Source: Zopfochytrium polystomum
Taxonomy: Eukaryota > Chytridiomycota > Chytridiomycetes > Chytridiales > Chytridiaceae
Direction of reading: 5' to 3'
Assembly (NCBI GenBank): GCA_025765615.1
Contig: JAIVFJ010000079.1
Coordinates: 62,001-126,000, forward strand
DNA length: 64,000 nt
Under the pieces are notes generated by a model, which saw only the letters and a program-made list of their open reading frames with translations, searched no databases and was not told the DNA's origin. The position numbers were made by a program, and so were the translations under genes. This document shows, one piece after another, positions 11,968-58,066 of this stretch. Within the stretch, counting starts at the first letter, position 1. Each line of letters begins with the position of its first letter.

Positions 11968-12104
11968 ATGGGGACTGCTTGCTGATGCAAAAGAAGAGAT
12001 TATCAGCAGTTGGCACCACCACGCAAATTGCGTCACACGTGGAGCACATGTCAGTTGCAGGAGCTTGGAATGAACAAACGAGCATTCAGTGTGAGTATAG
12101 TGCA

Positions 12105-12196
12105 TCCGACCACCCAGGTTCGAACTGGGGACCTCATGATGGCACCAGGCAGAAACCATTACAGTCATGCGCTCTTCCAACTGAGCTATGGTCGGA
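12105..12196 (-). tRNA. tRNA-Tyr (GTA) with short intron, left-arm copy
   Basis: The gene is 92 nt on the minus strand. The acceptor is TCCGACC/GGTCGGA and the anticodon stem CATGA/TCATG. The loop CTGTAA is interrupted after position 37 by about 18 nt and gives GTA. tRNA-Tyr carries an intron in most eukaryotes. The mirror copy is at 47686-47777. Confidence 0.93.
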
Positions 12197-13295
12197 GCTT
12201 GCAGATGGGCTGCAAACTGCTCCTCCGACTTGCGAGGTTATTGCACAAGTACCAGTGACAATACTCAGTGTCTGAAGGCAGTCCAAGATAAGGTAAGGGG
12301 GAGGGCATGGGCCGTAGCAATTGGCTGTGCAGCTGGATATACGTCGAATGCCAAGAATGGTCATGCAGTTGACAACAAAGGTGTGTAGTTTAAGGCTTGG
12401 GGGCTCAGTTAGGTTAGGTCAAAAGAGTCCATTTCCTGATATAATCCTGAAAAAAAAATCCAATTCAGAGGAACCAGTGGAGTGATAACATCACGGAATT
12501 GATTCAACGTTGCTAAGGGTGTCCATGCTGACAACCATCAGTAGTCAGTAGGTGCTACGGAGATTGCGCTTTTGCAATGCTATGTTGACCCTTATCCAAC
12601 CAATGCATTTGTGTCTTACGTTCTTACGTAGCAGGGACACTATCTGCTTGAGTGGAGGAGGTGGAAAACTGTTTTCGCTGGGTTTCTGCTCCACTATACT
12701 TGGAGTCTTTGTCAACAGTGCAAGCCAGTGTATCACAATAACTGACAGCCACAATAGGTTCAGCTCTGTCTTGTGCCTCTTGCTGCTAACCAGTCTGTTC
12801 TGCCTAATATGAAAAGGCCAGCCCAAAGGTGTTCTTGGTTGTGGCTGTGTGGGTGTTGGCAACACAAAACAAATTTCAGCAAACTGCACAATGGTTTTCC
12901 ATGATAGATACCTTGTTTCTGCTTTTTGCAGAATCAACCCTAAAGGTCAACAGAGCTGATAAGCATGGTGTGTGCAGGGATATCAGTATCCTAAACTGAT
13001 CATGAGACAAACACTGGATTCTTATTGTACCACACATCTGTCACACCCATGTGATGGGTGCCATAGCGCCACTGGAGCATTACAGATATCCTTTGTTTGG
13101 ATTTTTGGTTCCAGCACCTTGAAAGGGACCTCAGATGATAAGTGGAGCCAGCCAATCAAGAAGTAATTTCCAACAGGGCATGAAGTGGGCTATTGGCAAC
13201 AAGGGCTTCAGCTGTTGGTTGGAAAATTTTACAGAAACCTGAGATCCTAAAATCTCTATAGAAATTGTAAATACAAGTGTGAGCGAATAGTGCAG

Positions 13296-13366
13296 TCCCA
13301 GTTAGTATAGTGGCTAGTATCACCCCCTGTCACGGGGTAGACCCGGGTTCAATTCCCGGACTGGGA
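13296..13366 (+). tRNA. tRNA-Asp (GTC), left-arm copy
   Basis: The gene is 71 nt with a fully paired acceptor TCCCAGT/ACTGGGA, anticodon loop CTGTCAC and a standard GTTCAAT T-loop. It is equivalent to the inverted copy at 46516-46586. It lies 140 nt upstream of the 11.3-kb LTR element. Confidence 0.95.
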
Positions 13367-14868
13367 GTTGAGTTGAGAGTTTCTGTGGCAAGCACGCAAC
13401 TGGATGGCTTGCAACTTTGTCCTCCTAAATGATCCTCAGATGATGCTGAGGGGAAATTTTCAAGGGCAACCTGCTTTAGCCCAATCATCCAGTTGCTGTA
13501 CAGCGGTGTCGGCGGAACGGTCCGCCATGGGTCGGGTCGATGCAGTGTTGGTCGATTCTGCAGCCGACGAATTAGAGGATTTCTTTCAGACTTATTAATT
13601 TGAGGTCGCTATTTGATTGTGTGGGCCAGATTAAGTCGAGGATTTTTGTCGATTTTTTCTCAGCTTGCCAGGGCACTCGGTTACATTTGGTCATATTTTG
13701 GAGACTCTACGGTTTTTCCCCAACTTTTCCAGACAGTTCAAGGCCATCTTTATTAATTGCGGAAACATCACTACTTTGACGAGTATGTCAGTTTTCGACC
13801 TATTCTCTTGATTTTTGGTACACACACTCTTTATATCTACTCGAGAAACGCCTGTGAGTTTCGCAGCTGTGGCTATCTCCTACCAATCTCGGCGAATTTT
13901 CAAAGTTTCCTATCTCTCCAAAGGGCTGGGTCACGTGACCTACAAAGGAGTCGTATGGTTCAGGCTTTCATCGTAGGCTGCTCATATTTGGTGCACTCAA
14001 TATCAGCCACTACTCGAGTTTGCACTCCAATTTTGGTGTGGTTTCGTTGATTTTTCATGGACTTAGATCAGCACACTTGCAGCAGCGACGAAAATTCGGG
14101 GGATTCGTTTTTCGGGGTGCCCTTTTGAGGGTCGGTCCTTCTTATCATCATCCACCTGCATACAAGATTTCAGCTGGCTAGCTCTGCGCGTTCAGGTGTG
14201 ACGAGGTCGTGAACGGGGGCCAAAATCGACGTTTTTGGGGCCACACTCGACACCTTCCAATTAGTGGCGATTTTTCCCCACTTTGTGTGCCAGTCCCTGA
14301 CTGAATTCTGAACGGATTTGCTTGATTTTTGGCTCGTTGGAAAGGTCTATCAATCTTCTACCTCCTCTCAAAGTTTCAGGGTGGGGGCATTTGTTTTCGT
14401 AGAGTTATTGGCTGCGCAATCCTTTCTCACTTTTCTAATTATTTGTGCTTTTCTTTTTGTCCTTTCCAATTTTCTGGTGTCTCTCTTCTCTTTTTTTTTC
14501 TGTTTTTGAAATGTCTCTCCCATCCCTTTTGGTTGGTGTCTTTCTCATACCCCCTTCAAAGCCTTTTCCAGTTCGTGTTTTCGTGTTTTTCTAATTGTTT
14601 TAAATTTTCTTTTCCCATACCCTGCCAAACCACACCCCTCCACCAATTTTGGTCCTAAAATTCTGCAAAAATACCCATTCAACTTCCCCTCTTCTCCTCC
14701 TTGCTCCTGCTGTCATTTTACGTGTTTTATTACCTTTTTCCAAAAACCTGTCAAAGTTTTCTCTCTCTGTCTCCTCCCTATCTGTGCCAAAATACCCTCT
14801 CTTTCAAGTTCTTTCATACTCTCTTCTTCCTCTCTCCCTATTCTCAGAACGATTTGGTCTGGGAATAG

Positions 14869-14972
14869 GTGAGTCTTGCTGTTTCAGTGATGATCTTGGC
14901 TTCAACTCCTTCTACTTTGTTAGTTTCTCACCTTTACACCCCCCCCTTCTTCACTTCCACTTGGGCACATAG
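14869..14972 (+). other. Putative leader intron inside the LTR
   Basis: The donor is GGGAATAG|GTGAGT, followed by 104 nt with a strong pyrimidine tract. The acceptor is GGGCACATAG, followed by GTACTGTG. At 15071-15093 the same upstream 23 nt are joined directly to GTACTGTG, exactly as splicing would produce. The equivalent region in the 3' LTR is at about 24209-24312. Confidence 0.6.
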
Positions 14973-15217
14973 GTACTGTGCTGTCAGTTTGCCGTGTTCC
15001 CCGCGTGTTGAAGGTCTCCTTACACGTGCCAAAGGTGGAAGGACTTTTTCTTTGAGGTTTTAACTAATTGAGAACGATTTGGTCTGGGAATAGGTACTGT
15101 GCTGTCAGTTTGCCGTGTTCCCCGCGTGTTGAAGGTCTCCTTACACGTGCCAAAGGTACTGTGCTGTCAGTTTGCCGTGTTCCCCGCGTGTTGAAGGTCT
15201 CCTTACACGTGCCAAAG
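14973..15217 (+). repeat. Three copies of a 62-bp leader unit
   Basis: The unit GTACTGTGCTGTCAG...CACGTGCCAAAG occurs at about 14973-15034, 15094-15155 and 15156-15217. Copies 1 and 2 are separated by the 23-nt leader segment repeated at 15071. A further partial TCTGGGAATAG follows copy 3. The 3' LTR has the same structure from about 24313. Confidence 0.85.
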
Positions 15218-15536
15218 TCTGGGAATAGTCTTCCTTCTTCGGTTTTAGTTGCCGCTCTTAAGCGTCAGCGCCATCGATCTCTGCTCTCTCACCGCTCAAG
15301 ACCTTGTGTTTCTCCCTCTGGTCTGTGCGTATCCCTGGGGCTTAACACACCCGAAGACGCACACCAAGTCCATTACGTCTGCCGATTTCATCGAACCCCC
15401 ACCTCTGTCTGTGAGCGGAGGACAACCTTGCGAAGCCTGCTGTACGCGTGCCCAACCGCTGAGGCAGGGCGTTCAACTCACAGTGGCGCTACCGTTGGTC
15501 TTTCGGCGGACACATACACTAAGGCCCTAATTATCC

Positions 15537-18500
15537 ATGCACCGATCAGTCACCACCTCCATTGAGGAGAGGCCGGAGCCTTTTACTGGGTCGAACCTCA
15601 CAGAGTGGCTCGAAGATGCAGAACGATACCTCAACCTTCAAGGCATAACTTCATCAACTGAGCGTGGACGGGTCATTCTCGGCCTGTTCAACCGGACTGT
15701 CTTCCGGCAGTGGCGCGAGCACTGGGACCAACGTCGTTTCATCCCACCACCTCCACCACTGGCTCCTGTCATTCCAGCCGCTCCAACAGACGCTGAATAC
15801 CAGGCACTTCTGACAAATAGAGACAATGCTCTTGCGGACCTGGGGCGCGCAAGGACGGCAGGCACCGACCCTTCGGCTCCTCTTGACACGTACTTGGAGA
15901 CAGTGCGACTGGTCTTGGAAGCGGAAAATCAACGTGCAGCGGCTGACTTAGCTAGGGCTGCACGACCCACTCCTGCTGGGCCTCCAGCTGAGCGAGACGT
16001 TACAGAGGAGGAGGTTGTTCTCTTCATGCGAATCACCTACACTCTTCGTGACACAGTTGTCAACAACGAAGACCTTCGGCTTTACGGCGAACGAGTTCGG
16101 GTGGAAGGGTACCCAGATGGAAGCATGGAGTCGTACCTCAGCGAGTTTGACACCCTTCTGCGGCGAATCCCACCCACATCTCGGGCGCTTGAGAACAAAA
16201 TCATTGAGTATTTCCTTGGCGGTCTTCAGGATGATCACCTGGAGACAGTCCACAAGGCTTTTTGGGACAGCCGCAACAAGCAATTGGTTCATGACTACCT
16301 TGGCATGCGGCAGTTCATTCTTGACCTTGAGCGTCGCGTGCAGAGCAAGGCGGTCATTAAGAGCAACATGAGGGTTCCTGGGGCATCCTTATCGTCCACA
16401 GTAGTCAGCAAGCTCAGGACGCTGGCTACAACTCCGACGACAGCGATTCCTCCTGAGGAGAGGGCCATTGCGGTGCCTAGCGGCTTCAAGGGGAAAGGCC
16501 TAATGGCTCCAGCTACCCCTCAGGTCTTGACGCCAGCTGTGCCAAAGGCACCAGTCTCTGACAACGACGTGGACCGTCTTACAGAGGAGTTCAAGAAGAT
16601 GACACTCTTCCTGAAGAAGTCAGACGCCCTGAAGCCTTCAGACTTCAATGGAAGTGCCATGGCGATTAAGGCTTACATTGATATTTTTGGCGACGTCAAT
16701 AACGTGGCGGAGAAACGACCCTCGGTGCGTTTTGGCGGTGGTGGTAGCGAGTCCCGCTCCCCCTCAAAGGAGCGACCTGCATCCAAGTGTCATTGGTGCG
16801 GTGCTACCAATGATGATGGCGGCCACAACCACATTCGCTCCTGCCAGGTCTTGAAGGACGACATTGCCGGCGGGGTAGACGTAATGATTTCTACTGATGA
16901 GAATGATCGACCCTTCCTCTCAACCAAAGCTGGGAAGCGACTTTACCTGCCGTCCGGCGGAGGAAAGACCTTGCAGCAGGTGGTGAAGGAGTCGATGTTG
17001 AAAGGAGCTTCAGCAAACGCCATTGTTCTTGAACTTGCGTCCAGCAGCAGCGACAACTCGAGCCTATTGACAGCTGCGGAGACAGAGCGCTGGGAGCAGA
17101 TGGTGTTTGACCCATCAGTCAAAGATGGTCGGTTTCGGCATGTGTCAATCTACGGCCGGGAGAAGGACTTGGATGTCGTTCTTGCCGAGTTTTTTCAGGA
17201 CAAGCCACCAATCTCGGCTGCTCGCATGGTGGAGTCGGCTGGAGTCTTGCGGCCGGTGTACGGGATGATGCCTGTCCCCTTCATTGCAGTGGTGGAGGCT
17301 GCTGTTCTTGCAGAGAAGCGTGGACGCGATGACGATGGCATGGAGGATCGCGAGAAGAGGCGACAGCGTCGAGAGGAGGTTCGTGAGGCTGCTCAACCCA
17401 CAACTCGCTCTCGTGCTGCCCCTCCATCTGTGACGACCCCGGCGGCTCCATCAGCCCCGACTCCAGCTACTCCACCCACTCCAGCAAAAGTTTCGTTTCC
17501 TGCTGCTCCACTGCCGGTGGCAGGTCCATCAGGTGACAAGGGGAAGGCTCCTGCAGTCCCCCCTTCGGTTCAGAAGCCATCTCCTGGGCGTGATCCTCGA
17601 CCTTCAGAGCCAGGGAAGTATGATGACGCAGCTGAGGTGAAGCGTCCAAAGTACAAGTACGAGCGCGCCGGCCCTTTAGTGAACGTTGACGGCCCACAGA
17701 TGGTGCATGACGTCTTGGCAAAGGCGGAAGTGCGAATGTCAGCCCTCGAATTTCTTCAGCTTTCCTCAGTTGCTCAGAGCACCTTGGTGGACTGGATGAA
17801 GACAAAGAGGAAGCCAGTCGACGCTGCAGATCCCATGGTCATGGGCGCTGAAGCAGGTTCAGAGGAAGAGGAAGAGGGGAGCGGCCCAGAGGTTGCGGTC
17901 AATGTCTTCTCTCTCCTAGAAAATCATCAGTTCTTCGAAGATTTGCCAAAGAATTATCAGAAAGTCGTGGCTCAGCACACAGCAGAACTTCCTCCATTTC
18001 TGAGGGAGGTTGATCTGTCAGCAGCAGTGCAACGTGCGGCTGATCGCCAAGCAAATGTCAACATGCTTGCACATCCATCTCAGGCTGAGACATTTGCAGA
18101 TCGGGGATCGAGTCGACGTGTCTTCTCAGTTGGTAGGAACTTCAACAGCAGCACGCGCAACGATCTAAATGGATATCTTAGCGATCGATATCGTCAGTCA
18201 GATGCGTACCAGACCTTCCCCCTTCTATATGCCAACAACATCACAGTTGGCGACTTCATGGTCAGGCGGGGGTTGATTGATACGGGGGCCGAACTGAATG
18301 TCATGAGCTTCAGACTTGCGAGTGCGTTGATTCAATCTGGGATGGCAATCTCTCAGGACACCCGCTTGATCATGAACGGCGCTGCAGGGGGAAAGACAGC
18401 CTTGTTTGGGTGCATACCGGACGTACCAGTGTCTAAGGGTGGTCTTACCTTCAAGCAGTTCTTCTGGGTTGTTCCAAATGGCGTGAAGTCTCAGGAGATT

Positions 18501-18731
18501 CTCTTGGGTGGGCCGTTCAATGCAGCGTCGGCATCGAAGATCGATTATGACCGCAGTGGCGATGTATGGGTGACCTGGTCGGATGAGGAGGGTCACTCTG
18601 CGAAGTTCTTGGCGCTTCAGTTTGAGAACAACATCAGGGCAAAGCGGCGGCTGCGTCCTAACATCATGGATGACGAGGGGGATAATCAGGAGCCAGAAAC
18701 CCAGAGTCAGGATTTTCAGCGCGGGCACTAG
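15537..18731 (+). CDS. ORF1: Gag with zinc-knuckle-like motif and C-terminal aspartic protease
   Basis: The protein is 1,064 aa. It has a retrotransposon-gag-like N-terminal half and a C-x2-C...H...C cluster (CHWCGA...HNHIRSC, about residues 418-436). A Pro/Ala- and charge-rich linker spans about 600-730. A retropepsin-like domain has active site LIDTGAELN near residue 912. The start is the first ATG after the LTR, 55 nt downstream. The stop is TAG at 18729-18731, inside the predicted frameshift stem. The product would supply particle structure and polyprotein cleavage. This Gag is much longer than that of the chromovirus in the same window. Confidence 0.88.
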   Translation: MHRSVTTSIEERPEPFTGSNLTEWLEDAERYLNLQGITSSTERGRVILGLFNRTVFRQWREHWDQRRFIPPPPPLAPVIPAAPTDAEYQALLTNRDNALADLGRARTAGTDPSAPLDTYLETVRLVLEAENQRAAADLARAARPTPAGPPAERDVTEEEVVLFMRITYTLRDTVVNNEDLRLYGERVRVEGYPDGSMESYLSEFDTLLRRIPPTSRALENKIIEYFLGGLQDDHLETVHKAFWDSRNKQLVHDYLGMRQFILDLERRVQSKAVIKSNMRVPGASLSSTVVSKLRTLATTPTTAIPPEERAIAVPSGFKGKGLMAPATPQVLTPAVPKAPVSDNDVDRLTEEFKKMTLFLKKSDALKPSDFNGSAMAIKAYIDIFGDVNNVAEKRPSVRFGGGGSESRSPSKERPASKCHWCGATNDDGGHNHIRSCQVLKDDIAGGVDVMISTDENDRPFLSTKAGKRLYLPSGGGKTLQQVVKESMLKGASANAIVLELASSSSDNSSLLTAAETERWEQMVFDPSVKDGRFRHVSIYGREKDLDVVLAEFFQDKPPISAARMVESAGVLRPVYGMMPVPFIAVVEAAVLAEKRGRDDDGMEDREKRRQRREEVREAAQPTTRSRAAPPSVTTPAAPSAPTPATPPTPAKVSFPAAPLPVAGPSGDKGKAPAVPPSVQKPSPGRDPRPSEPGKYDDAAEVKRPKYKYERAGPLVNVDGPQMVHDVLAKAEVRMSALEFLQLSSVAQSTLVDWMKTKRKPVDAADPMVMGAEAGSEEEEEGSGPEVAVNVFSLLENHQFFEDLPKNYQKVVAQHTAELPPFLREVDLSAAVQRAADRQANVNMLAHPSQAETFADRGSSRRVFSVGRNFNSSTRNDLNGYLSDRYRQSDAYQTFPLLYANNITVGDFMVRRGLIDTGAELNVMSFRLASALIQSGMAISQDTRLIMNGAAGGKTALFGCIPDVPVSKGGLTFKQFFWVVPNGVKSQEILLGGPFNAASASKIDYDRSGDVWVTWSDEEGHSAKFLALQFENNIRAKRRLRPNIMDDEGDNQEPETQSQDFQRGH

Positions 18732-21700
18732 AGGCTGCGAGCTCTAGCGCCCTACCTGAAAAACTCGCACCTGATCCACCCCATCTCACTTTTCTCAACA
18801 TCTTCACGTGGAATGTGAACTCTTGGAGGAACGCAGCACCAAAGTTGGACAATCAGCAGAAGGCGGTTCTCTTGCACCAGGACGTCATTTTCCTGCAGGA
18901 GACTCGCTTTGGTGATGCCTCTTTTTCTGACGTTCTGGATTTCAACACTTCTACTTTTGAAGTCTTCGTCTCCGACTTTCCCCTTGAAGTAGGCTCAGTG
19001 AAAGGAAAGGGCACTAGCGGTGTCGCTACTCTTGTGAGAAAGCGCTTGCCTTGGCTTTTGCCAGAAGTGCACCGCGAAATCCCTGGCCTTTCCCTTGCTG
19101 CTTCAGAGGGTCGGTATTTGGAGCTTCGGTACGGCACCTTGGTCCTCGTCAACGTGTACTTCCCAGCAGCCAGTCGGGGGCGTGATGACAGGATTGCTTA
19201 TAAGGAGGACGTGCAGCGTAGAGTCTACCTTCATCTTTCAGACCTACAGCAGCGAGGTTTTCAGATAATTTTGGGAGCAGACACCAACGTGGCGCAGGAG
19301 CTCATTGACATCAACCCCAAAGTCATTAGCAAGATTACTTCAGGCTTTCGTGACGAGGAGCGAACCTGGATGCGGGCAATGACAGCCATCCTTGTGGATG
19401 CATTCCGCCACGTTCACCCTCACAAACCTCTCTTCAGCACTTGGTACTACCAGGACCGGCGTCTGAACCTTGGGATGCGGTACGACTACATCCTGCTTTC
19501 AAAGTCAATTCGAGTCCCTTCGGCGTTCCACCACATGAGCTGGCGGTGCTCTGATCACGTACCAGTCGCTTGCACAGTTGCACTTGACCTTCGGCTTGTG
19601 GGGGGCTTGACTGGGGAAGCTCAACTTGCTGTTTCTTCTCTTGCTTTTGACGTCATGACGAAGTCTAAGACGGTGGCGGAAAAGGTTCGGCCTGTCGCCA
19701 CGCAGCAGCCTCGGTATGATGGTTATGATACAAAGCGCATTGAGGTGGCCCTCTCTCAGCCTCTTCAGCCAGCAGATCAAGTGGAGATCTCAGATGAGCT
19801 GTTTGGGGAGATGTTTGCATCGAGCATGGAGCACAAAGGATACTTGCGGGCAGCGGAGTACGCCTACCTTCAGATGCGCCTTCGGTACTACAGGAAGGCT
19901 TTTTCAGTCCACCTTCGCGAGATGGGTCGCTTGAGGTCGGATCTCTTTCCTCCAGTTAACATCTGGACAATACCTCACGAGCCCTGGAACACGAAGGATC
20001 GCCACCAACCACCTCTTCTTTTGGAAATTTTCACAAGGAAGATCACAGAAAGGATGGGGTACGGCATGTATGAGCATTGCGACGGTCCTTACTCCTCTCC
20101 TTGGATGTTGGTCCCAAAGAAGCCGACGATTGTCAGATTGTCAGACGGATCGACAAAGGAGGAGCAGGATGTGCGGTTTATCCAGGATCTGCAGCCATTG
20201 AACAGGGTGGCAATCCGCGAGGCGGGGTCGCCGCCCAAGATCGACGAGATCTCACTTGAGGCGGCAGGACACGTCATCTACTCTCGTATTGACAGCATGT
20301 CATTTTTTGATCAAATCACAGTCAACCCCGAGCACCGGAAGATGACAGCAGTTCGAACTCCAGTTGGGCAGATCAGCACGGTTGGCCTTCCTCAGGGATT
20401 CACCAACTCCCCAGCTCATGCCCAGAAAGTCTCCAACATTGTCTTTTTCAGGTCTGGTCAGGCAAGGCCTTTTGTTGATGATGTGGTCGTCTTCAGTGGG
20501 TCGAAGGATGATCTGGTGGAGTCAGATGTTCCTGGCGTCCGACGATTTGTTGTGCTCCACGCAGACATTCTTGAGGAGCTTTTGACTAGGGCGGTCAACT
20601 CTGGGCTCACTCTTCACCTGGGGAAGGGGAAGACTGAGATTGCGGTCCCTTCGACTGTCGGCGTTGGCGTTAAGTTCTCCATCGAAGGCCGACACATCGA
20701 CCCCAAGAAGTTGAAGGGGGCGCTACGCTTCTTGCCTCCCACCAGCGTGAAAGAGGTTCGGCAGTTTCTTGGACTTGTTCAGCAGTTTAGGGTCTGGATT
20801 GAGTTCTTCTCGATCATCTGCGAGCCTTTCATCAGACTCTTGCGGAAGAATCAGCCTTGGGAGTGGGGTCAGCCACAGGGGGAGGCGTTCCAGCAGCTTA
20901 AGGAGCTTCTCTCTTCATCGCCGGCGCTCCGCAGCCCTGACTACACGGACTTGGAGAATCGACCCTTCATCCTCACCTGCGACGCAGGGCCTCTTGGCGA
21001 AGGGGCTTGCCTGGCGCAGGAGGATACAGAGGGGAGGCGGTACGCAGTTGGATACTTCTCTGGACTTTGGAAGGAGGGGGAGCTGCGATACTCGCAGATT
21101 AAGAAGGAGCTGTGTGCACTCTTTCGGAATTTGAGGCGGATTTACTACTTGGTGGCTGGGGCGCCACGTATCATTGTGGAGTTGGATGCATCAGCCATCA
21201 GGGGTATGTTGAACAATCCACGTCTTTCTGACGCCACCATGCTTCGGTGGATTGCCTACATTTACACTTTTCCCGTCGAGCTTCGGACGATTCGGGGGAG
21301 GAACAACAGCGTCGCTGATGCCCTCTCTCGTCTACCACAGGAGGAGGTGGAGGGGGATCCAACTCTGGAGGCGGAGGAGGCAGCGGAGAAGGCGTTTGGG
21401 TCATTGTGGGCGCTGCAGCTCGACAGTCTAGAGGACGACCCCTACCTTATGGAGATTGCGCGCTACTTGGATTCTTTGGAACTTCCTCCCAACCTCTGTT
21501 TATCGAGAAGACGAGGTTTTCTTCGTGACGTGCAGAAGTATTTCCTTCTTGACAGTGTCCTCTTTCGGCGGCAGCCTGACGGGCAGCAACCTCTTCGCGT
21601 TCTGGGCCGGATTTCGGATCAGCGTAGGGCTATTGCAGAGTGCCATCAGGGTGTTGGAGGCGGTCACTTTTCGTTTGAGGGGACATATGCAAAGGTGCAC

Positions 21701-22393
21701 AGCAGATTTTTCTGGCGATCGCACATGGTCAGCGATGTGCGGTCATTTGTTGAGACGTGTGAGGACTGTCAGCGTCAGTCGAAGCGGACGGTGTACGAGC
21801 CAGTTGTGCCAATCATGCCACCAGCGACAGCGGCGATGGTATGGTATGGCGATTTGGTGCACATGGATCGCGCATCAGATGGGCGGCGATACATCTGGCA
21901 TCTCACTTGTGCTTTGACTGGTTGGCCTGAGGCATGCGCATTCAGAACAAAGTCGCTTGGGCCAATGTTGAAGTGGACCATTGAGAGCGTTTTTCACCGC
22001 TTCAGCTATCCAGTCAGCATCACTGTCGATGGAGGAGAGTGGTCAAAGACGGAAGTGGATGAGACTGCAAAGCGGTACGGTATTCATCTTGACACAACAA
22101 CAGTGTCTAACCAGAGGGCAAACGGTGTTGTCGAGCGTTCACACCCCATCTTGGTCAACGCCATCAAGAAGCTGACGAGGGCAGACAAGTCCAAGTGGCC
22201 CCGCTACCTTTCCCTTGGTCTCTTCGCTCAGCGGGGTGACAACAACGAAGCGTGGTTACTCGCCATTCTACTTGATGTATGGGCAGGATCCTCTTTTTCC
22301 CTTGGACTTCATGTTGGAGTCTTTCTCAGTCATCAACTGGCGGACGAAAATGTCAAGGGAGGATCTCCTTGCGGCTCGCATTCGCCAGCTTGA
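18686..22393 (+). CDS. ORF2: APE/EEP endonuclease, reverse transcriptase, RNase H and integrase
   Basis: The frame is entered by -1 frameshift near 18716. An EEP fold follows at about 18790-19590. It shows TWNVNSW (the Asn of the WN motif), FLQET (metal-binding Glu), GADTNV (Asp and Asn of the catalytic core) and SDHVPV (Asp-His), so all signature residues of an APE-like nuclease are present. Then come a Ty3-type RT (RFIQDLQPLN, GFTNSPA, FVDD near 20470), RNase H (LTCDAG, VADALSR), an integrase H2C2 finger and a DDE core (GDLVHMD, VDGGEW, VVERSH). The frame runs out at 22393 because of a one-base change near 22233-22236. The integrase tail continues in ORF 22215-22937. Confidence 0.85.
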   Translation, partial: SGARNPESGFSARALEAASSSALPEKLAPDPPHLTFLNIFTWNVNSWRNAAPKLDNQQKAVLLHQDVIFLQETRFGDASFSDVLDFNTSTFEVFVSDFPLEVGSVKGKGTSGVATLVRKRLPWLLPEVHREIPGLSLAASEGRYLELRYGTLVLVNVYFPAASRGRDDRIAYKEDVQRRVYLHLSDLQQRGFQIILGADTNVAQELIDINPKVISKITSGFRDEERTWMRAMTAILVDAFRHVHPHKPLFSTWYYQDRRLNLGMRYDYILLSKSIRVPSAFHHMSWRCSDHVPVACTVALDLRLVGGLTGEAQLAVSSLAFDVMTKSKTVAEKVRPVATQQPRYDGYDTKRIEVALSQPLQPADQVEISDELFGEMFASSMEHKGYLRAAEYAYLQMRLRYYRKAFSVHLREMGRLRSDLFPPVNIWTIPHEPWNTKDRHQPPLLLEIFTRKITERMGYGMYEHCDGPYSSPWMLVPKKPTIVRLSDGSTKEEQDVRFIQDLQPLNRVAIREAGSPPKIDEISLEAAGHVIYSRIDSMSFFDQITVNPEHRKMTAVRTPVGQISTVGLPQGFTNSPAHAQKVSNIVFFRSGQARPFVDDVVVFSGSKDDLVESDVPGVRRFVVLHADILEELLTRAVNSGLTLHLGKGKTEIAVPSTVGVGVKFSIEGRHIDPKKLKGALRFLPPTSVKEVRQFLGLVQQFRVWIEFFSIICEPFIRLLRKNQPWEWGQPQGEAFQQLKELLSSSPALRSPDYTDLENRPFILTCDAGPLGEGACLAQEDTEGRRYAVGYFSGLWKEGELRYSQIKKELCALFRNLRRIYYLVAGAPRIIVELDASAIRGMLNNPRLSDATMLRWIAYIYTFPVELRTIRGRNNSVADALSRLPQEEVEGDPTLEAEEAAEKAFGSLWALQLDSLEDDPYLMEIARYLDSLELPPNLCLSRRRGFLRDVQKYFLLDSVLFRRQPDGQQPLRVLGRISDQRRAIAECHQGVGGGHFSFEGTYAKVHSRFFWRSHMVSDVRSFVETCEDCQRQSKRTVYEPVVPIMPPATAAMVWYGDLVHMDRASDGRRYIWHLTCALTGWPEACAFRTKSLGPMLKWTIESVFHRFSYPVSITVDGGEWSKTEVDETAKRYGIHLDTTTVSNQRANGVVERSHPILVNAIKKLTRADKSKWPRYLSLGLFAQRGDNNEAWLLAILLDVWAGSSFSLGLHVGVFLSHQLADENVKGGSPCGSHSPA
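18710..18752 (+). promoter_or_regulatory. ORF1-ORF2 -1 ribosomal frameshift signal
   Basis: The heptamer G GAT TTT (18710-18716) is in the ORF1 register and is of the GGAUUUU type used by dianthoviruses. A 6-nt spacer follows, then a stem of GGGC-A-CTAGAG (18723-18733) with CTCTAG-C-GCCC (18742-18752). That is ten pairs, one A/C mismatch and an 8-nt loop. ORF2 is open in the -1 frame from 18686. Confidence 0.7.
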
Positions 22394-22937
22394 ACGTAGG
22401 GCTGAGGACATCCAGCGAGCCCGAACAACGCTCTCTCGAGTGCGTACAGAGGCAGCTGAGCGGCAGAATGCAAGGCATCAGCATCAGATGCGGTCTACCC
22501 CTCTTCAGCCTGGAGACTTAGTGCTAATGTGGGACTCAACCTTGGACAACCAGTGGGGTCGGAAGTTAGACGATCGCTGGATGGGTCCCTTCATTGTTGT
22601 GGAGAGTCGGAGCGGCGGGACTTACCTTTTGCGTGAGCTTGATGGAACTCCGCTTATGCGACCAATTGCAGGGCATCGTTTGAAGGTTTTCAAGGTTCGT
22701 GATGACCCTGCCGGCCTCTTCTTCGACAACACGCCTATCGACCCTGTGGAAGCGGACGAGGACTCAGACTCCGAGCTTGGAATCGTCGACCTCGCCCTCG
22801 CCTTTCGCCAAGGGACGGCGAGTGCCTGCAGGCGCCTTTTGGGACTGTCGGCGGAACGGTCCGCCATGGGTCGGGTCGATGCAGTGTTGGTCGATTCTGC
22901 AGCCGACGAATTAGAGGATTTCTTTCAGACTTATTAA
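22215..22937 (+). CDS. Integrase C-terminal continuation, shifted frame, ending inside the 3' LTR
   Basis: This 240-codon frame continues the integrase without a gap (GYSPFYLMYGQDPLFP, then the LQPGDLVLMWD-type C-terminal domain). The frame switch falls at a run of four G (22233-22236), and one G fewer would restore the frame. It could be a real frameshift mutation or a base-calling error. The last ~30 codons lie inside the 3' LTR, so they also occur in the 5' LTR at about 13507-13598. Confidence 0.8.
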   Translation: MVSSLSGVTTTKRGYSPFYLMYGQDPLFPLDFMLESFSVINWRTKMSREDLLAARIRQLERRAEDIQRARTTLSRVRTEAAERQNARHQHQMRSTPLQPGDLVLMWDSTLDNQWGRKLDDRWMGPFIVVESRSGGTYLLRELDGTPLMRPIAGHRLKVFKVRDDPAGLFFDNTPIDPVEADEDSDSELGIVDLALAFRQGTASACRRLLGLSAERSAMGRVDAVLVDSAADELEDFFQTY

Positions 22938-24822
22938 TTTGAGGTCGCTATTTGATTGTGTGGGCCAGATTAAGTCGAGGATTTTTGTCGATTTTTTCTC
23001 AGCTTGCCAGGGCACTCGGTTACATTTGGTCATATTTTGGAGACTCTACGGTTTTTCCCCAACTTTTCCAGACAGTTCAAGGCCATCTTTATTAATTGCG
23101 GAAACATCACTACTTTGACGAGTATGTCAGTTTTCGACCTATTCTCTTGATTTTTGGTACACACACTCTTTATATCTACTCGAGAAACGCCTGTGAGTTT
23201 CGCAGCTGTGGCTATCTCCTACCAATCTCGGCGAATTTTCAAAGTTTCCTATCTCTCCAAAGGGCTGGGTCACGTGACCTACAAAGGAGTCGTATGGTTC
23301 AGGCTTTCATCGTAGGCTGCTCATATTTGGTGCACTCAATATCAGCCACTACTCGAGTTTGCACTCCAATTTTGGTGTGGTTTCGTTGATTTTTCATGGA
23401 CTTAGATCAGCACACTTGCAGCAGCGACGAAAATTCGGGGGATTCGTTTTTCGGGGTGCCCTTTTGAGGGTCGGTCCTTCTTATCATCATCCACCTGCAT
23501 ACAAGATTTCAGCTGGCTAGCTCTGCGCGTTCAGGTGTGACGAGGTCGTGAACGGGGGCCAAAATCGACGTTTTTGGGGCCACACTCGACACCTTCCAAT
23601 TAGTGGCGATTTTTCCCCACTTTGTGTGCCAGTCCCTGACTGAATTCTGAACGGATTTGCTTGATTTTTGGCTCGTTGGAAAGGTCTATCAATCTTCTAC
23701 CTCCTCTCAAAGTTTCAGGGTGGGGGCATTTGTTTTCGTAGAGTTATTGGCTGCGCAATCCTTTCTCACTTTTCTAATTATTTGTGCTTTTCTTTTTGTC
23801 CTTTCCAATTTTCTGGTGTCTCTCTTCTCTTTTTTTTTCTGTTTTTGAAATGTCTCTCCCATCCCTTTTTGGTTGGTGTCTTTCTCATACCCCCTTCAAA
23901 GCCTTTTCCAGTTCGTGTTTTCGTGTTTTTCTAATTGTTTTAAATTTTCTTTTCCCATACCCTGCCAAACCACACCCCTCCACCAATTTTGGTCCTAAAA
24001 TTCTGCAAAAATACCCATTCAACTTCCCCTCTTCTCCTCCTTGCTCCTGCTGTCATTTTACGTGTTTTATTACCTTTTTCCAAAAACCTGTCAAAGTTTT
24101 CTCTCTCTGTCTCCTCCCTATCTGTGCCAAAATACCCTCTCTTTCAAGTTCTTTCATACTCTCTTCTTCCTCTCTCCCTATTCTCAGAACGATTTGGTCT
24201 GGGAATAGGTGAGTCTTGCTGTTTCAGTGATGATCTTGGCTTCAACTCCTTCTACTTTGTTAGTTTCTCACCTTTACACCCCCCCCTTCTTCACTTCCAC
24301 TTGGGCACATAGGTACTGTGCTGTCAGTTTGCCGTGTTCCCCGCGTGTTGAAGGTCTCCTTACACGTGCCAAAGGTGGAAGGACTTTTTCTTTGAGGTTT
24401 TAACTAATTGAGAACGATTTGGTCTGGGAATAGGTACTGTGCTGTCAGTTTGCCGTGTTCCCCGCGTGTTGAAGGTCTCCTTACACGTGCCAAAGGTACT
24501 GTGCTGTCAGTTTGCCGTGTTCCCCGCGTGTTGAAGGTCTCCTTACACGTGCCAAAGTCTGGGAATAGTCTTCCTTCTTCGGTTTTAGTTGCCGCTCTTA
24601 AGCGTCAGCGCCATCGATCTCTGCTCTCTCACCGCTCAAGACCTTGTGTTTCTCCCTCTGGTCTGTGCGTATCCCTGGGGCTTAACACACCCGAAGACGC
24701 ACACCAAGTCCATTACGTCTGCCGATTTCATCGAACCCCCACCTCTGTCTGTGAGCGGAGGACAACCTTGCGAAGCCTGCTGTACGCGTGCCCAACCGCT
24801 GAGGCAGGGCGTTCAACTCACA
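22846..24822 (+). repeat. 3' LTR of the endonuclease-bearing element
   Basis: This is 1,977 bp, matching 13507-15482 with one additional T near 23873. No clear polypurine tract precedes it: the last bases are CGCCTTTTGGGAC, which is coding for the integrase tail. It is followed by GCGGTGCTGG of the interrupted left arm. Confidence 0.93.
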
Positions 24823-25600
24823 GCGGTGCTGGCACATGTACGAGCTTGAGCCTTGGATACTCCAGGAACTCCAGGACTTGCCACTGCCAGTATTGTAAAA
24901 GAGGGAGATTAAGTTATGCAGGCACGATTCCTGCGATTCAGAACAATGGTATGGCTGAGCAAATTCCCCTGCTGTAGAAGAGGATTACACTTCCTTTTTT
25001 GTACTTACAAATGCTTTTCCTTTCCGTTTATTTTCCCCAACACTGCGGCCTTTTTCATCACCAATGAGAAATAGAAAAGATCTCATGGTATCAGAAACCT
25101 TGCCGCTTTGGCTGCTTCTGCATCAACACTGTGGCAGCTCCTGCAGGCCAGTCTGCCAGTTGCCTGCTGAGCCAATCTCTCACAGTTTCTCAACTGCCAC
25201 ATTGTTGTTCTGTAGCCAACACACAGCCACACTTTGCCCAGGCACCCACACCTTTGGGGAGGAGAGGCTGCTGTGAAACATGAGTGAATTGGGGTTCCCA
25301 GTGCACAGTACGCACCAGCCATAAAAAACGAATGGAGTGGGGTCACTGATTCTCTTTTCCCTTGACCCTTCCTTCAGAGACCCAACAAATATAGCACAGC
25401 AGCAGTGGCACCACACTGCACCAAACACCAGGGAGGACAAGGGAGTCACGTGTTGGACTTCTTTGGTGATTGGTCCTTTTCTTGCTTTTGATGGAAACGT
25501 GAGAGGAGTGGAGAAACAAAAAAACCAAGAAAAGTTTGCAAGGACATGTCCAATGTAATTCACAGTTTACAGATACCGCAGGAGCTTGCAGCACCACCTT

Positions 25601-25670
25601 GCAACAGCCGGGAATCGGACCCGGGTCTACCGCGTGGCAGGCGATAATTCTACCACTGAACCACTGTTGC
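25601..25670 (-). tRNA. tRNA-Gly (GCC), left-arm copy
   Basis: The gene is 70 nt with acceptor GCAACAG/CTGTTGC, anticodon loop CTGCCAC and T-arm CCGGGTCCGATTCCCGG. The mirror copy is at 45532-45601, and the two look identical across the gene. Confidence 0.93.
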
Positions 25671-26090
25671 GCTGGATGTGTTGATGTCGTTTCACATTGA
25701 TCAGTAAATCTACTTATAGGTACTGGAGAAAAAGTTTCTTTGCAGTGTTGCTAGAAGAACACCAGGGTCCCAGAATGAGCCCTCATTCCATGGCCCCACC
25801 AGTGTCCTTTGCTTACAAGAAATTTGATTGGTGTGTGTATCAGTTGCAGCACTTGCGCAACACATCTCTGCAAGATGGCTGCAGCCAATCATGCATCAAA
25901 CTCTACCAGCCACAAGAATATTTAAAAGCAGCTTGACTGAAGGAATAAGCAAACAACACAGGTGCGTAAACAAAGGCAAACTATGTGATCAGACACAACA
26001 ATCACTGTAAGCACAGTAACACCAACCTCATGAAGATCTTCAAAATCCAATTGTGAGCACAATCAGTAAAAGCAGCTTTGACTAGCCATT

Positions 26091-26172
26091 GCGCTGACCG
26101 GGAATTGAAACCGGGGCTGATGCTATCTCCCAAGGGTGGAAGGCGTCTATTTTACCACTAAACTACCAGCGC
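26091..26172 (-). tRNA. tRNA-Gly (TCC) with short intron, left-arm copy
   Basis: The gene is 82 nt with acceptor GCGCTGG/TCAGCGC. Loop CTTCCA is followed by about 12 extra nt, read as an intron. The anticodon stem GACGC/GCATC has one C-A mismatch. This copy has CCGGT where the right-arm copy has CCGGG in the T stem, which breaks one pair and suggests decay. It ends 11 nt before the chromovirus target duplication (16 nt before the LTR). Confidence 0.75.
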
Positions 26173-26188
26173 CCTTTTATGTTACTTG

Positions 26189-26541: not shown

Positions 26542-27480
26542 TCATCTCCCCCTTTTAGGCCTCTTCTGCAACTTGGTGGGGTACCTGGTCTTGAACTCGA
26601 GCAGAAGGTCTTGGCAGTGAGTGAGGTTTGACTCAGGCTCCCAGGTGTTGTCAGCATCTGAGTAACCTTTCCACTTAACAAGGAACTTGAGTGTTCTTCC
26701 AAACCACTTGGCATCCAAGATTTGTTCAACCTCAAATTCCTCTTCACCTTCTACCTCAACTGGAGGAGGAGGAGGAACAACTCTGCCTGGAATGGAATTG
26801 GCCACAAACTTCTCTAAAAGGCTGACATGGAAAACTGGGTGGATCTTCATGGATGCAGGGAGATCCAGCTTGAAGGTGACTGGATTGATTTGCTCCAAGA
26901 TCTTGAAAGGACCCAACTTGAGGTTGTCTAGCTTGGGACTTGGTCTTTTGGTCTGCAAGTTCTTCCTCAGAAGCCAAACTTGCTGACCCACAGCAAAGTC
27001 ATGGTCCATTCTGTGAGTGTTCGCAAATCTTGAGGCATCTTCTTGGGCTTGCTTCAGAGTGGAGTCCAGGAAGGAGTTGATGATCTTGAGTTTATGTAAG
27101 TGTGAAGCCGCAGCAGGAGCTTGGACATTGGATAGGGTCTCTTGTCCCAGAAGATCTCCTCTTGGATTGAAGCCATAGGTTGCAAAGAAAGGAGATAGCT
27201 GGGTGCTTGAGTGGAGAGAATTGTTGAGAGCAAATTCTGCCAGTGGAAGGAGGGTGGGCCAATCATCCTGTTGATAGCTGACATAGCACCTCAAATACTG
27301 CTCCAGAGTCTGGTTTGTTCTTTCTGTTTGTCCATCAGTCTGAGGGTGATAAGCAGTTGACAGTTGAGACTTGATTCCAAGGGCTGCTGTGAGTGCTTTC
27401 CAAAATTGGGATCTGAACTGTGGTCCTCTGTCACTGACGATTGACTGAGGCAGCCCATGGAGCCTGAATATGTGCTGCAA
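26542..27480 (-). CDS. pol: Pol C-terminal part: integrase core and chromodomain
   Basis: This 312-codon frame continues the integrase after the frameshift. It has the second catalytic Asp (SDRGPQF) and the Glu (DGQTERTNQ), then a long C-terminal domain ending in a chromodomain (FLVKWKGYSDADNTWEPE). Chromodomains of chromoviruses bind histone marks and steer integration. It is separated from the first part by the loss of one base. The deleted element at 2416-5515 retains the chromodomain. Confidence 0.9.
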   Translation of the reverse strand: MQHIFRLHGLPQSIVSDRGPQFRSQFWKALTAALGIKSQLSTAYHPQTDGQTERTNQTLEQYLRCYVSYQQDDWPTLLPLAEFALNNSLHSSTQLSPFFATYGFNPRGDLLGQETLSNVQAPAAASHLHKLKIINSFLDSTLKQAQEDASRFANTHRMDHDFAVGQQVWLLRKNLQTKRPSPKLDNLKLGPFKILEQINPVTFKLDLPASMKIHPVFHVSLLEKFVANSIPGRVVPPPPPVEVEGEEEFEVEQILDAKWFGRTLKFLVKWKGYSDADNTWEPESNLTHCQDLLLEFKTRYPTKLQKRPKRGR

Positions 27481-27506
27481 AAACAGGTCTGCTGTTCCTT
27501 GTGCAT

Positions 27507-44492: not shown

Positions 44493-45029
44493 ACCCCATT
44501 CCCTTCCACTGGCTGGTTGGAGCACTTTCTCCTTCAAAGGAGAAATGGCAATTCTGTACAGACATATGGCGGGAAGATTGTTCTCCTGGTGAGGCACACT
44601 GGGGGGCACAGGGGAGGTGCTCACACTGCCGCTCCTCTGCTGGGCTCTGGGTCAGCGCACAGATTCAGCTGTGCCATCACCACTGAGCTACTACACAACT
44701 CAATACCGTTAAGGCCCTTTTTGTCACAAATAGCGAAATTGTATTGATTTTGGAACCTGAGCTGCTCCACCTCCATCCTCAGTAGAGCTCCTCATTCTGC
44801 CTCCAAGGACCTTCTGTTGATTCCAGTTTGTTGTTTGCATGACTTTGGCACTGGTGGCATTGGCCATTTGTCAAACCTGTATGAACAAGCGCTTTTGAGC
44901 TCCTAACTATGGGTCAGATGGCTGGCTAAAGTGCTGCCAATGGTGGCAAACATTGGAAGGAACGTGATGCTTGGCGTTGGTTGGCAACAGGATGTGTAGT
45001 GCAACAACAATCCCAAGTAACATAAAAGG

Positions 45030-45111
45030 GCGCTGGTAGTTTAGTGGTAAAATAGACGCCTTCCACCCTTGGGAGATAGCATCAGCCCCGGGTTCAATTC
45101 CCGGTCAGCGC
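45030..45111 (+). tRNA. tRNA-Gly (TCC) with short intron, right-arm copy
   Basis: This is the same gene as 26091-26172, but with a perfect T stem (CCGGGTTCAATTCCCGG). Loop CTTCCA is followed by about 12 nt, then GCATC. One C-A mismatch in the anticodon stem is shared with the other arm and so is ancestral. Confidence 0.8.
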
Positions 45112-45531
45112 AATGGCTAGTCAAAGCTGCTTTTACTGATTGCGCTCACAATTGGATTTTGAAGATCTTCATGAGGTTGGTGTTACTGTGCTTACAGTGA
45201 TTGTTGTGTCTGATCACATAGTTTGCCTTTGTTTACACACCTGTGTTGTTTGCTTATTCCTTCAGTCAAGCTGCTTTTAAATATTCTTGTGGCTGGTAGA
45301 GTTTGATGCATGATTGGCTGCAGCCATCTTGCAGAGATGTGTTGCGCAAGTGCTGCAACTGATACACACACCAATCAAATTTCTTGTAAGCAAAGGACAC
45401 TGGTGGGGCCATGGAATGAGGGCTCATTCTGGGACCCTGGTGTTCTTCTAGCAACACTGCAAAGAAACTTTTTCTCCAGTACCTATAAGTAGATTTACTG
45501 ATGAATGTGAAACGACATCAACACATCCAGC

Positions 45532-45601
45532 GCAACAGTGGTTCAGTGGTAGAATTATCGCCTGCCACGCGGTAGACCCGGGTCCGATTCCCGGCTGTTG
45601 C
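45532..45601 (+). tRNA. tRNA-Gly (GCC), right-arm copy
   Basis: The gene is 70 nt with the same stems and anticodon loop CTGCCAC as 25601-25670. Confidence 0.93.
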
Positions 45602-46515
45602 AAGGTGGTGCTGCAAGCTCCTGTGGTATCTGTAAACTGTGAATTACATTGGACATGTCCTTGCAAACTTTTCTTGGTTTTTTTGTTTCTCCACTCCTCT
45701 CACGTTTCCATCAAAAGCAAGAAAAGGACCAATCACCAAAGAAGTCCAACACGTGACTCCCTTGTCCTCCCTGGTGTTTGGTGCAGTGTGGTGCCACTGC
45801 TGCTGTGCTATATTTGTTGGGTCTCTGAAGGAAGGGTCAAGGGAAAAGAGAATCAGTGACCCCACTCCATTCGTTTTTTATGGCTGGTGCGTACTGTGCA
45901 CTGGGAACCCCAATTCACTCATGTTTCACAGCAGCCTCTCCTCCCCAAAGGTGTGGGTGCCTGGGCAAAGTGTGGCTGTGTGTTGGCTACAGAACAACAA
46001 TGTGGCAGTTGAGAAACTGTGAGAGATTGGCTCAGCAGGCAACTGGCAGACTGGCCTGCAGGAGCTGCCACAGTGTTGATGCAGAAGCAGCCAAAGCGGC
46101 AAGGTTTCTGATACCATGAGATCTTTTCTATTTCTCATTGGTGATGAAAAAGGCTGCAGTGTTGGGGAAAATAAACGGAAAGGAAAAGCATTTGTAAGTA
46201 CAAAAAAGGAAGTGTAATCCTCTTCTACAGCAGGGGAATTTGCTCAGCCATACCATTGTTCTGAATCGCAGGAATCGTGCCTGCATAACTTAATCTCCCT
46301 CTTTTACAATACTGGCAGTGGCAAGTCCTGGAGTTCCTGGAGTATCCAAGGCTCAAGCTCGTACACGTGCCAGCACCGCTGTACAGCAACTGGATGATTG
46401 GGCTAAAGCAGGCTGCCCTTGAAAATTTCCCCTCAGCATCATCTGAGGATCATTTAGGAGGACAAAGTTGCAAGCCATCCAGTTGCGTGCTTGCCACAGA
46501 AACTCTCAACTCTAC

Positions 46516-46586
46516 TCCCAGTCCGGGAATTGAACCCGGGTCTACCCCGTGACAGGGGGTGATACTAGCCACTATACTAACTGGGA
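46516..46586 (-). tRNA. tRNA-Asp (GTC), right-arm copy
   Basis: The gene is 71 nt, the mirror of 13296-13366, with acceptor TCCCAGT/ACTGGGA and anticodon GTC. Confidence 0.95.
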
Positions 46587-47685
46587 CTGCACTATTCGCT
46601 CACACTTGTATTTACAATTTCTATAGAGATTTTAGGATCTCAGGTTTCTGTAAAATTTTCCAACCAACAGCTGAAGCCCTTGTTGCCAATAGCCCACTTC
46701 ATGCCCTGTTGGAAATTACTTCTTGATTGGCTGGCTCCACTTATCATCTGAGGTCCCTTTCAAGGTGCTGGAACCAAAAATCCAAACAAAGGATATCTGT
46801 AATGCTCCAGTGGCGCTATGGCACCCATCACATGGGTGTGACAGATATGTGGTACAATAAGAATCCAGTGTTTGTCTCATGATCAGTTTAGGATACTGAT
46901 ATCCCTGCACACACCATGCTTATCAGCTCTGTTGACCTTTAGGGTTGATTCTGCAAAAAGCAGAAACAAGGTATCTATCATGGAAAACCATTGTGCAGTT
47001 TGCTGAAATTTGTTTTGTGTTGCCAACACCCACACAGCCACAACCAAGAACACCTTTGGGCTGGCCTTTTCATATTAGGCAGAACTGACTGGTTAGCAGC
47101 AAGAGGCACAAGACAGAGCTGAACCTATTGTGGCTGTCAGTTATTGTGATACACTGGCTTGCACTGTTGACAAAGACTCCAAGTATAGTGGAGCAGAAAC
47201 CCAGCGAAAACAGTTTTCCACCTCCTCCACTCAAGCAGATAGTGTCCCTGCTACGTAAGAACGTAAGACACAAATGCATTGGTTGGATAAGGGTCAACAT
47301 AGCATTGCAAAAGCGCAATCTCCGTAGCACCTACTGACTACTGATGGTTGTCAGCATGGACACCCTTAGCAACGTTGAATCAATTCCGTGATGTTATCAC
47401 TCCACTGGTTCCTCTGAATTGGATTTTTTTTTCAGGATTATATCAGGAAATGGACTCTTTTGACCTAACCTAACTGAGCCCCCAAGCCTTAAACTACACA
47501 CCTTTGTTGTCAACTGCATGACCATTCTTGGCATTCGACGTATATCCAGCTGCACAGCCAATTGCTACAGCCCATGCCCTCCCCCTTACCTTATCTTGGA
47601 CTGCCTTCAGACACTGAGTATTGTCACTGGTACTTGTGCAATAACCTCGCAAGTCGGAGGAGCAGTTTGCAGCCCATCTGCAAGC

Positions 47686-47777
47686 TCCGACCATAGCTCA
47701 GTTGGAAGAGCGCATGACTGTAATGGTTTCTGCCTGGTGCCATCATGAGGTCCCCAGTTCGAACCTGGGTGGTCGGA
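47686..47777 (+). tRNA. tRNA-Tyr (GTA) with short intron, right-arm copy
   Basis: The gene is 92 nt, the mirror of 12105-12196. Stems and intron are conserved between the two copies. Confidence 0.93.
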
Positions 47778-48154
47778 TGCACTATACTCACACTGAATGC
47801 TCGTTTGTTCATTCCAAGCTCCTGCAACTGACATGTGCTCCACGTGTGACGCAATTTGCGTGGTGGTGCCAACTGCTGATAATCTCTTCTTTTGCATCAG
47901 CAAGCAGTCCCCATTTCCCTTCTCCCCTCTGCGCTGGCAGGTCATCAAACCCCTGGAAGCTTCAGAGGAGCAACTCGACAATTACACTTCAGCTGTCTCA
48001 GTTGAGCTTGCCCCCCTCTCAGCAGCCCTTGCAGCCTTGGACAGCATTCTTCTCCCCCTCCGAGCTTGAGTTCCTCCATTCTCCATCCCTACCCTTTCAA
48101 TACCCCTCCCCAGAACGTGCATCACTCCTCATCAGCCACCTTGACACACTCTAA

Positions 48155-52769: not shown

Positions 52770-53104
52770 GCCACTGTTGCCCTTCTCAATCTTGACATGG
52801 GCTGTTGCCTAATCTGACTTATCCCAACCCTCCGATCTTTCACAGATGCTCCCCTCTCTTACACTGACATCCTTCAGACTCACTTCTCTATTTTCTTGAT
52901 TCTGTGTTTTCCCCTTCTCCTTTGATCATTGTGGCTTTATGTGCGGTGGAGATGCCTGACGACCCTGTAAGTCCGTAGCGCATGGGGTGGGTTTGCTGAG
53001 GTGATACCTGGACGTAGTCCATTACGGTTCACCGTTGATGGCTCTTTCTCTTCCCGCCAGCCCCTCTGGGGCTGGAACAATAAAAAAAAAAAAAAAAAAA
53101 AAAA

Positions 53105-57721: not shown

Positions 57722-57811
57722 TGTCGTTTATAATAGTATATAAAATATATTTTCATTTTTTAAAGCGCGTTTTTTATTTAAAACATTTTCTTCTGTTTTT
57801 ATTGTTGTAAT
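57722..57811. promoter_or_regulatory. AT-rich divergent intergenic region
   Basis: These 90 nt lie between the minus-strand primase gene start and a plus-strand frame. They contain TATATAAAATATA-like words that could serve both directions. A role as a bidirectional promoter is inferred from position only. Confidence 0.35.
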
Positions 57812-58066
57812 ATGTCGCAGTTTCCCTTACAAGATCAAGTAAAAAATCTCTCAAAAACAGACTTTATACGCCTTTATCTTGCTGTAAATGACGAGTTCAA
57901 CAAACTAAAATCAGATAATCCTAAAACAGTCAAACATCTGTTTTATAATATTCGCAATCCAGAAAAGGCTCGTCAATATTCTATCAATGACCATAGAAGA
58001 AAAAATCAGTCACATCAACAACAATATCCTGATCAACAACTACCACAACTTCTCGACTGTATTTAA
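57812..58066 (+). CDS. Small hypothetical protein in the viral relic
   Basis: The protein is 84 aa, Gln/Asn/Lys-rich, with a helix-prone N-terminal half (DFIRLYLAVNDEFNKL) and a Gln-rich end. I recognise no family. It is divergent from the primase gene. The final ~45 nt (ATCAACAACTACCACA...TCTCGACTGT) recur at about 58150-58185, outside the frame. Confidence 0.4.
   Translation: MSQFPLQDQVKNLSKTDFIRLYLAVNDEFNKLKSDNPKTVKHLFYNIRNPEKARQYSINDHRRKNQSHQQQYPDQQLPQLLDCI

Follow-up and report, generated by a model that had tools for sequence, protein, structure and literature searches.

A cellular-type ExoIII/APE1 nuclease in the Pol protein of Ty3-like LTR retrotransposons of Zopfochytrium polystomum

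Ty3/gypsy elements (Metaviridae) are characterized by long terminal repeats (LTRs), a tRNA primer site, Gag, a protease (PR), the enzyme series reverse transcriptase (RT)-RNase H-integrase with a D,D35E triad, and a 4-bp target-site duplication (TSD). To our knowledge, protease, RT, RNase H and integrase are thought to be the only enzymes that LTR retroelements need. Long interspersed nuclear elements (LINEs) of the APE class have neither LTRs nor an integrase, and their target-primed insertion goes along with variable TSDs and 5' truncation. Here we describe a young Ty3-like LTR element in a 64,000-nt stretch of the Zopfochytrium polystomum genome (contig JAIVFJ010000079.1, positions 62,001 to 126,000; this stretch is called the window, and coordinates below refer to it). 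Its Pol protein starts with a domain of the exonuclease/endonuclease/phosphatase (EEP) fold, and related elements of the same genome carry such a domain further inside Pol.

A few LTR elements with additional enzymes have been described. In PMC11673190, Exo_endo_phos domains are noted, as here, in LTR elements, namely the Kuafuorterviruses of animals, where they are "only present sporadically" and perhaps host-derived. The RT motif given there for Kuafuorterviridae is IADD, VADD or LADD, whereas it is FVDD in the window element and YLDD in C104, a second element of our genome. The dUTPase of non-primate lentiviruses, thought to protect the cDNA, is placed by PMC4261571 between RNase H and integrase in Pol. 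It is thus an extra Pol enzyme in the same place as the nuclease of our elements with the order RNase H-EEP-integrase, but it is a nucleotide hydrolase, whereas the LTR EEP is a predicted nuclease. Captured enzymes are also known from rotifer LTR elements (a DEDDy exonuclease or a GDSL ORF3; PMC5408684) and orchid Gypsy elements (an AlkB-like 2-ODD domain; PMC9289625), and nucleic acid is the substrate of two of them; they are other enzymes and lie in additional open reading frames (ORFs), not inside Pol. An LTR lineage with EEP as a standard part of Pol was not found described in the open PubMed Central literature, a search that did not extend to bioRxiv, Repbase, GyDB or the majority of subscription journals; an earlier reading of the window, made from the sequence only, had known of no such lineage either.

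The sequence-only reading had placed an EEP fold with intact motifs at the start of ORF2, and the profile search bears this out. PF03372 matches at E=1.9e-12, its score of 47.8 bits exceeding the cut-off of 24.5, and the motifs TWNVNSW, LQETR, GADTN and SDH are all present. The fold comes with the N, E, Y, D/N, D, D/H residues that form the ExoIII/APE1 active site, in the window copy N27, E56, Y142, D183, N185, D251, D274 and H275 (counted from 18734); the catalytic residues are invariant in 25 of 25 sequences. The best sequence matches, ExoA (5cfe), Mm3148 (5j8n) and human APE1, share this fold and these residues, and by sequence and fold the LTR-element nuclease is of the ExoIII/APE1 type. 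It differs from these enzymes in being embedded in Pol and in lacking the Trp of the abasic pocket (GWR): present in 11/11 and 80/80 cellular EEPs, this residue gives way to L, M, F or V in all 26 LTR EEPs compared. The loss suggests a specificity other than abasic sites, which would have a precedent, since the structural relatives include, by PDB title, the 3' phosphatase NExo (6fk4) and the DNA uridine endonuclease Mth212 (3w2x).

As in APE-class LINEs, an EEP fold and an RT share one protein in the window element, and the sequence-only reading had likened the domain to LINE nucleases. This likeness was not confirmed. The 56 PDB sequence matches (to E=10) include no LINE endonuclease, whereas L047, a LINE of the same genome used as positive control, finds the LINE-1 endonuclease first (2.9e-8); we therefore rejected a LINE origin. 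L046, a second LINE type, matched no EEP structure and is uninformative as a control, and the absence of a LINE endonuclease from the matches listed in 50 VIA-align rows is no proof of absence. The LINE endonuclease belongs to another branch, and the window element, unlike LINEs, has LTRs and an integrase.

A PF03372 scan of the 80-Mb genome (150 of 183 candidates scored) matched at least 132 places, of which we opened the best 30 and six regions among the remaining 102. Ty3-type RT, RNase H or integrase adjoins the EEP in 27 of the best 30 loci. Three of these 27, the window element and its siblings C55 and C143, have the EEP first in Pol; the order RNase H-EEP-integrase occurs at no fewer than 20 loci, all of other families than the window's. 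L003, with an integrase, was left out of this count because the match upstream of its EEP is short and extends into that domain, and L021, L028 and L030 have Ty3-type domains on one side of the EEP only. By Pfam, C40 and C251 hold RT-RNase H-EEP-H2C2-rve in single frames and C104 holds RT-RNase H-EEP-H2C2 plus a weak rve; in C24, RNase H-EEP-H2C2 is followed by rve and a chromodomain. L022, L023 and L029, also among the best 30, have no RT, RNase H or integrase neighbours. The EEP of L022 is joined to a 2'-5' RNA ligase, and the next frame has a weak poly(A)-polymerase match (1354-3183 and 213-1415 in that locus, both on the minus strand), which makes it a cellular-looking gene, probably an RNA-processing fusion. 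L045, L046 and L047 are LINEs with EEP and RT in which the integrase is absent; L049 and L050 are LINE-like by eye, and L048 resembles a cellular APE1 gene. One LINE type (L045, L046) has several EEP matches per contig (C44, C253, C515, C190), which suggests local or target-specific accumulation.

In the first protein-database search, three of 13 matches contained PF03372 (P0001, P0002 and P0007). The metagenome proteins P0001 and P0002 show EEP-RT-RNase H-H2C2 in one chain, as in the window, with 38% identity to the query over 72% and 70%, respectively; the order in P0007, likewise a metagenome protein, is EEP-PR-RT-RNase H-integrase. None of the proteins retrieved with C104 (0/11) or C24 (0/26) as query contains PF03372, two scans of viral contigs yielded no related element, and scanning GTDB with an alignment of the LTR EEPs confirmed no relative. 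The sequence-only reading had allowed for a one-off fusion. Such an event, or an assembly artefact, would agree with the window family itself having only three copies, but the 20 or more further loci, the single-chain metagenome proteins and the purifying selection described below refute it and leave it practically no probability.

The EEP tree has 25 rows and omits two divergent LINE rows. Its group A, made up of window, C104, C20, P0001 and P0002, is supported with 100/99 and group B with 93/93. Both groups lie together on one side of a branch (86/72), and P0007 falls outside them on a long branch. The RT-RNase H tree, built from 50 of 59 rows after a length filter had removed nine (all Ty3-like, without Copia or Bel rows), supports each group with 100/100 and does not join them; a single A+B clade is not rejected (approximately unbiased test, p 0.353). 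Within group A, both trees agree on ((C104,C20),(window,(P0001,P0002))), though the nuclease is internal in C104 and C20 and N-terminal in window, P0001 and P0002. Because of this agreement in spite of differing positions, the nuclease, judged by the phylogenies, changed place in Pol during common descent.

An EEP match lies within 3 kb of the RT in 29 of 34 group B loci (at least 64% identity) and 6 of 10 group A loci (at least 38% identity), the locus lists coming from scans in which 99 of 508 and 106 of 629 candidates were scored. In this genome's EEP-free Ty3 family the corresponding figure is 0/72. An example of this family stands in the window itself (26542-30260, minus strand), an ordinary Ty3 element with RT, RNase H, H2C2 and chromodomain. 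The loci without an EEP match within 3 kb are C88, C27, C96 and C110 in group A and C145, C111, C229, C22 and C272 in group B. Three of these nine were opened and are deleted, rearranged or degraded: C88 ends shortly past RNase H, where the EEP would start, C27 is degraded, and C145 retains an EEP remnant next to RT, with the integrase on the opposite strand. Near relatives, then, keep the nuclease.

Ratios of nonsynonymous to synonymous substitution rates (dN/dS) were computed for the EEP over ten pairs; frameshifted outer segments give meaningless values. For C251-C136 the ratio is 0.09 for EEP, 0.08 for RT/RNase H and 0.10 for integrase, and for C251-C117 it is 0.04 (19 synonymous, three other changes), 0.17 and 0.39, respectively. 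EEP values of 0.05 (C251-C461), 0.19 (C136-C42; seven synonymous, four other changes) and 0.06 (C104-C20, with saturated dS) were further obtained. In C24-C40 and C251-C54 dS was not computable for the EEP, and C136-C136 (1/0 changes), C40-C61 (0/1) and C8-C24 (4/0) are too alike. Measured by these ratios, which span 0.04-0.19, the nuclease is under purifying selection comparable to that on RT, and the earlier supposition of selection on the domain stands.

LTR ends with a 4-bp TSD were found for five of the six insertions sought (window, C55, C143, C104 and C40); for C24, no LTRs were found within the 15 kb examined. The LTRs of C104 (284 bp, TSD ACAC) and C40 (908 bp, TSD CGGT) are 100% identical, and the siblings C55 and C143 have the TSDs ACGG and ACGT, taken from the outer LTR ends. 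The insertions are of the integrase type, and the second integration route suggested by the sequence-only reading found no support in them. By such a LINE-like route, the nuclease would nick the target and the 3'-OH would prime or join the cDNA, and the union of an endonuclease fold and an RT in a single chain does recall APE-class LINEs; in view of the five insertions, the intact integrase triad and a nuclease sequence unlike that of LINE endonucleases, we regard it as very improbable. Hardly more credible is a role of the fold as a DNA- or chromatin-binding targeting module whose chemistry is irrelevant. In the window, a distance of 139 bp separates the element from a tRNA-Asp gene that it lies behind, and the three window-family TSDs (GCGG, ACGG, ACGT) are all NCGN, with n=3 too few for a preference. 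Against targeting stand the catalytic residues, invariant in 25/25, and the flanks examined of C55 and C143 (~1.3 and 0.9 kb), which hold no tRNA gene; tRNA targeting as such was rejected.

The organization of the window element is given in Table 1. Its near-identical TG...CA LTRs, short TSD and tRNA primer site are Ty3/gypsy traits, as is the enzyme order of protease followed by RT-RNase H-integrase with D,D35E, the protease match being weak and the rve profile finding no match on the window ORF2. The sequence-only reading was right about two ~1.98-kb LTRs differing by about one base and about Ty3-like RT, RNase H and DDE integrase downstream of the EEP, for which profiles or the triad were found. 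A 1-base indel is the sole difference between the LTRs; two mismatches listed by BLAST fall outside the LTR end. Both flanks are 99.5-99.7% identical to the paralogous segment, as part of an inverted duplication (11968-13508 and 24820-26188 versus 45014-47914). The primer site begins one base 3' of the 5' LTR. The pattern search for it gave five matches in the genome, two of which are tRNA-Asn(GTT), with the anticodon read by eye; only tRNA-shaped matches were counted, since reversed control patterns matched as often (7 and 8).

The Gag part of ORF1 had no match in the profile search. RT, RNase H and H2C2 follow the EEP in its reading frame. Because ORF2 overlaps ORF1 in the -1 frame and its open frame has no ATG upstream of the nuclease, it is likely translated as a Gag-Pol fusion. 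We saw no slippery heptamer in the frame required; a hairpin lies downstream (z -2.3). The Pol frame of the window copy is broken after the integrase triad, and its 1235 aa compare with 1416 aa in the siblings. The description as intact is therefore true of the nuclease and its motifs, not of the whole Pol of this copy.

Table 1. Features of the EEP-bearing LTR element and its empty-site paralogue in the window
Feature	Position	Strand	Remarks
Target-site duplication, 5' side	13503..13506		GCGG
LTR retrotransposon, Ty3-like, young	13507-24822
5' LTR	13507..15482	+	1976 bp, TGT...ACA ends
Primer binding site	15484..15494	+	TGGCGCTACCG; 11 nt complementary to tRNA-Asn(GTT) 3' end, CCA included
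ORF1, Gag-like	15537..18731	+	1064 aa; Gag assigned by place
Aspartic protease, putative	ORF1 aa 911-994		LIDTGAELNVMS; PF13650 E=1.9e-4, below cut-off
ORF2 (Pol) open frame	18686..22393	+	1235 aa; -1 frame relative to ORF1, overlap 46 nt
EEP nuclease domain, ExoIII/APE1 type	18806..19558	+	PF03372; aa 25-275 counted from 18734
Reverse transcriptase	20252..20635	+	PF00078 (RVT_1) E=1.1e-13; FVDD
RNase H	20864..21265	+	PF17919 and PF17917; RT_RNaseH_2 E=2.7e-20
Integrase zinc-binding domain	21620..21784	+	PF17921 (Integrase_H2C2) E=5.9e-13
Integrase catalytic triad D1040, D1099, E1134	21851..22135	+	D,D35E; 34 residues between last two
Integrase C-terminal part	22215..22937	+	Other frame in window copy
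3' LTR	22846..24822	+	1977 bp
Target-site duplication, 3' side	24823..24826		GCGG
Paralogous flank copy without element	45014..47914	-	Empty site ~46374-46382, same window

Several young families carry the domain and its active site, at differing positions in Pol, under purifying selection and with integrase-type insertions. We propose, with a probability of roughly one half, that a Ty3-like LTR element took in a cellular ExoIII/APE1-type nuclease as an accessory Pol enzyme acting on the cDNA. The nuclease would be made within Gag-Pol via frameshifting and freed inside the particle by the element's protease; its variable place in Pol is easier to reconcile with an enzyme that the protease releases than with a component of the integrase complex. 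In the particle, ahead of integrase action, it would clean cDNA 3' ends of blocked or extra nucleotides or of leftover primer, or alternatively cut the cDNA at damaged or uracil-derived sites, while integration itself would be carried out by the D,D35E integrase. Such a role may be compared to that of the dUTPase protecting the cDNA of some retroviruses. ExoIII has RNase H activity, and the nuclease directly follows RNase H in the commonest layout, so that it might instead degrade RNA or remove the tRNA and polypurine-tract primers, aiding RNase H in reverse transcription. Since the element's own RNase H matches its profiles well and the nuclease of the window lineage sits at the start of ORF2, far from RNase H, we consider this unlikely, albeit the least so among the alternatives discussed. 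Returning to an accessory enzyme acting on cDNA, a more specific version can be put forward only tentatively: the elements may encode their own cDNA repair, by an ExoIII-type nuclease captured once before the A/B split and later moved within Pol, which would cut damaged or uracil-containing cDNA or unblock 3' ends in the particle. With its specificity shifted away from abasic sites, this nuclease would be to cDNA repair what dUTPase is to retroviruses, a counterpart of that enzyme.

The surroundings of the element are rich in repeats. ARAGORN detected 22 tRNA-like genes of many kinds between 8800 and 47778, and 22 Rfam matches lie mostly in the same places; these genes are spread over 39 kb, interleaved with retroelements and the inverted duplication. 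A tandem array with a period of ~126 bp and copies ~87% alike occupies 6085-7730. LINE-like RT and RNase H frames (48155-52769, plus strand; L047-like by eye) are followed on their 3' side by a Copia-like fragment (52971-54338). The frames of an AT-rich island at 55171-59159 (minus strand; ~30% GC) are broken; D5_N matches one of them (PF08706, E=9.1e-13), and DUF5906 weakly matches another. The island perhaps represents giant-virus- or plasmid-derived DNA with a D5-like primase-helicase in the host chromosome. Among cellular proteins of the genome, actin has its best structural match in 4efh, an Acanthamoeba protein (616.7 bits, against 612.6 for the second), and a cofilin has its best match in actophorin; by themselves these two matches would make an amoebozoan host likelier than a fungal one.

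A nuclease that selection has kept in several LTR-element lineages, and that is mobile within Pol, implies that some step of the life cycle benefits from it. This makes testable whether cDNA damage or the quality of cDNA ends limits retrotransposition. It also means that "EEP plus RT" in an automatic annotation need not indicate a LINE.
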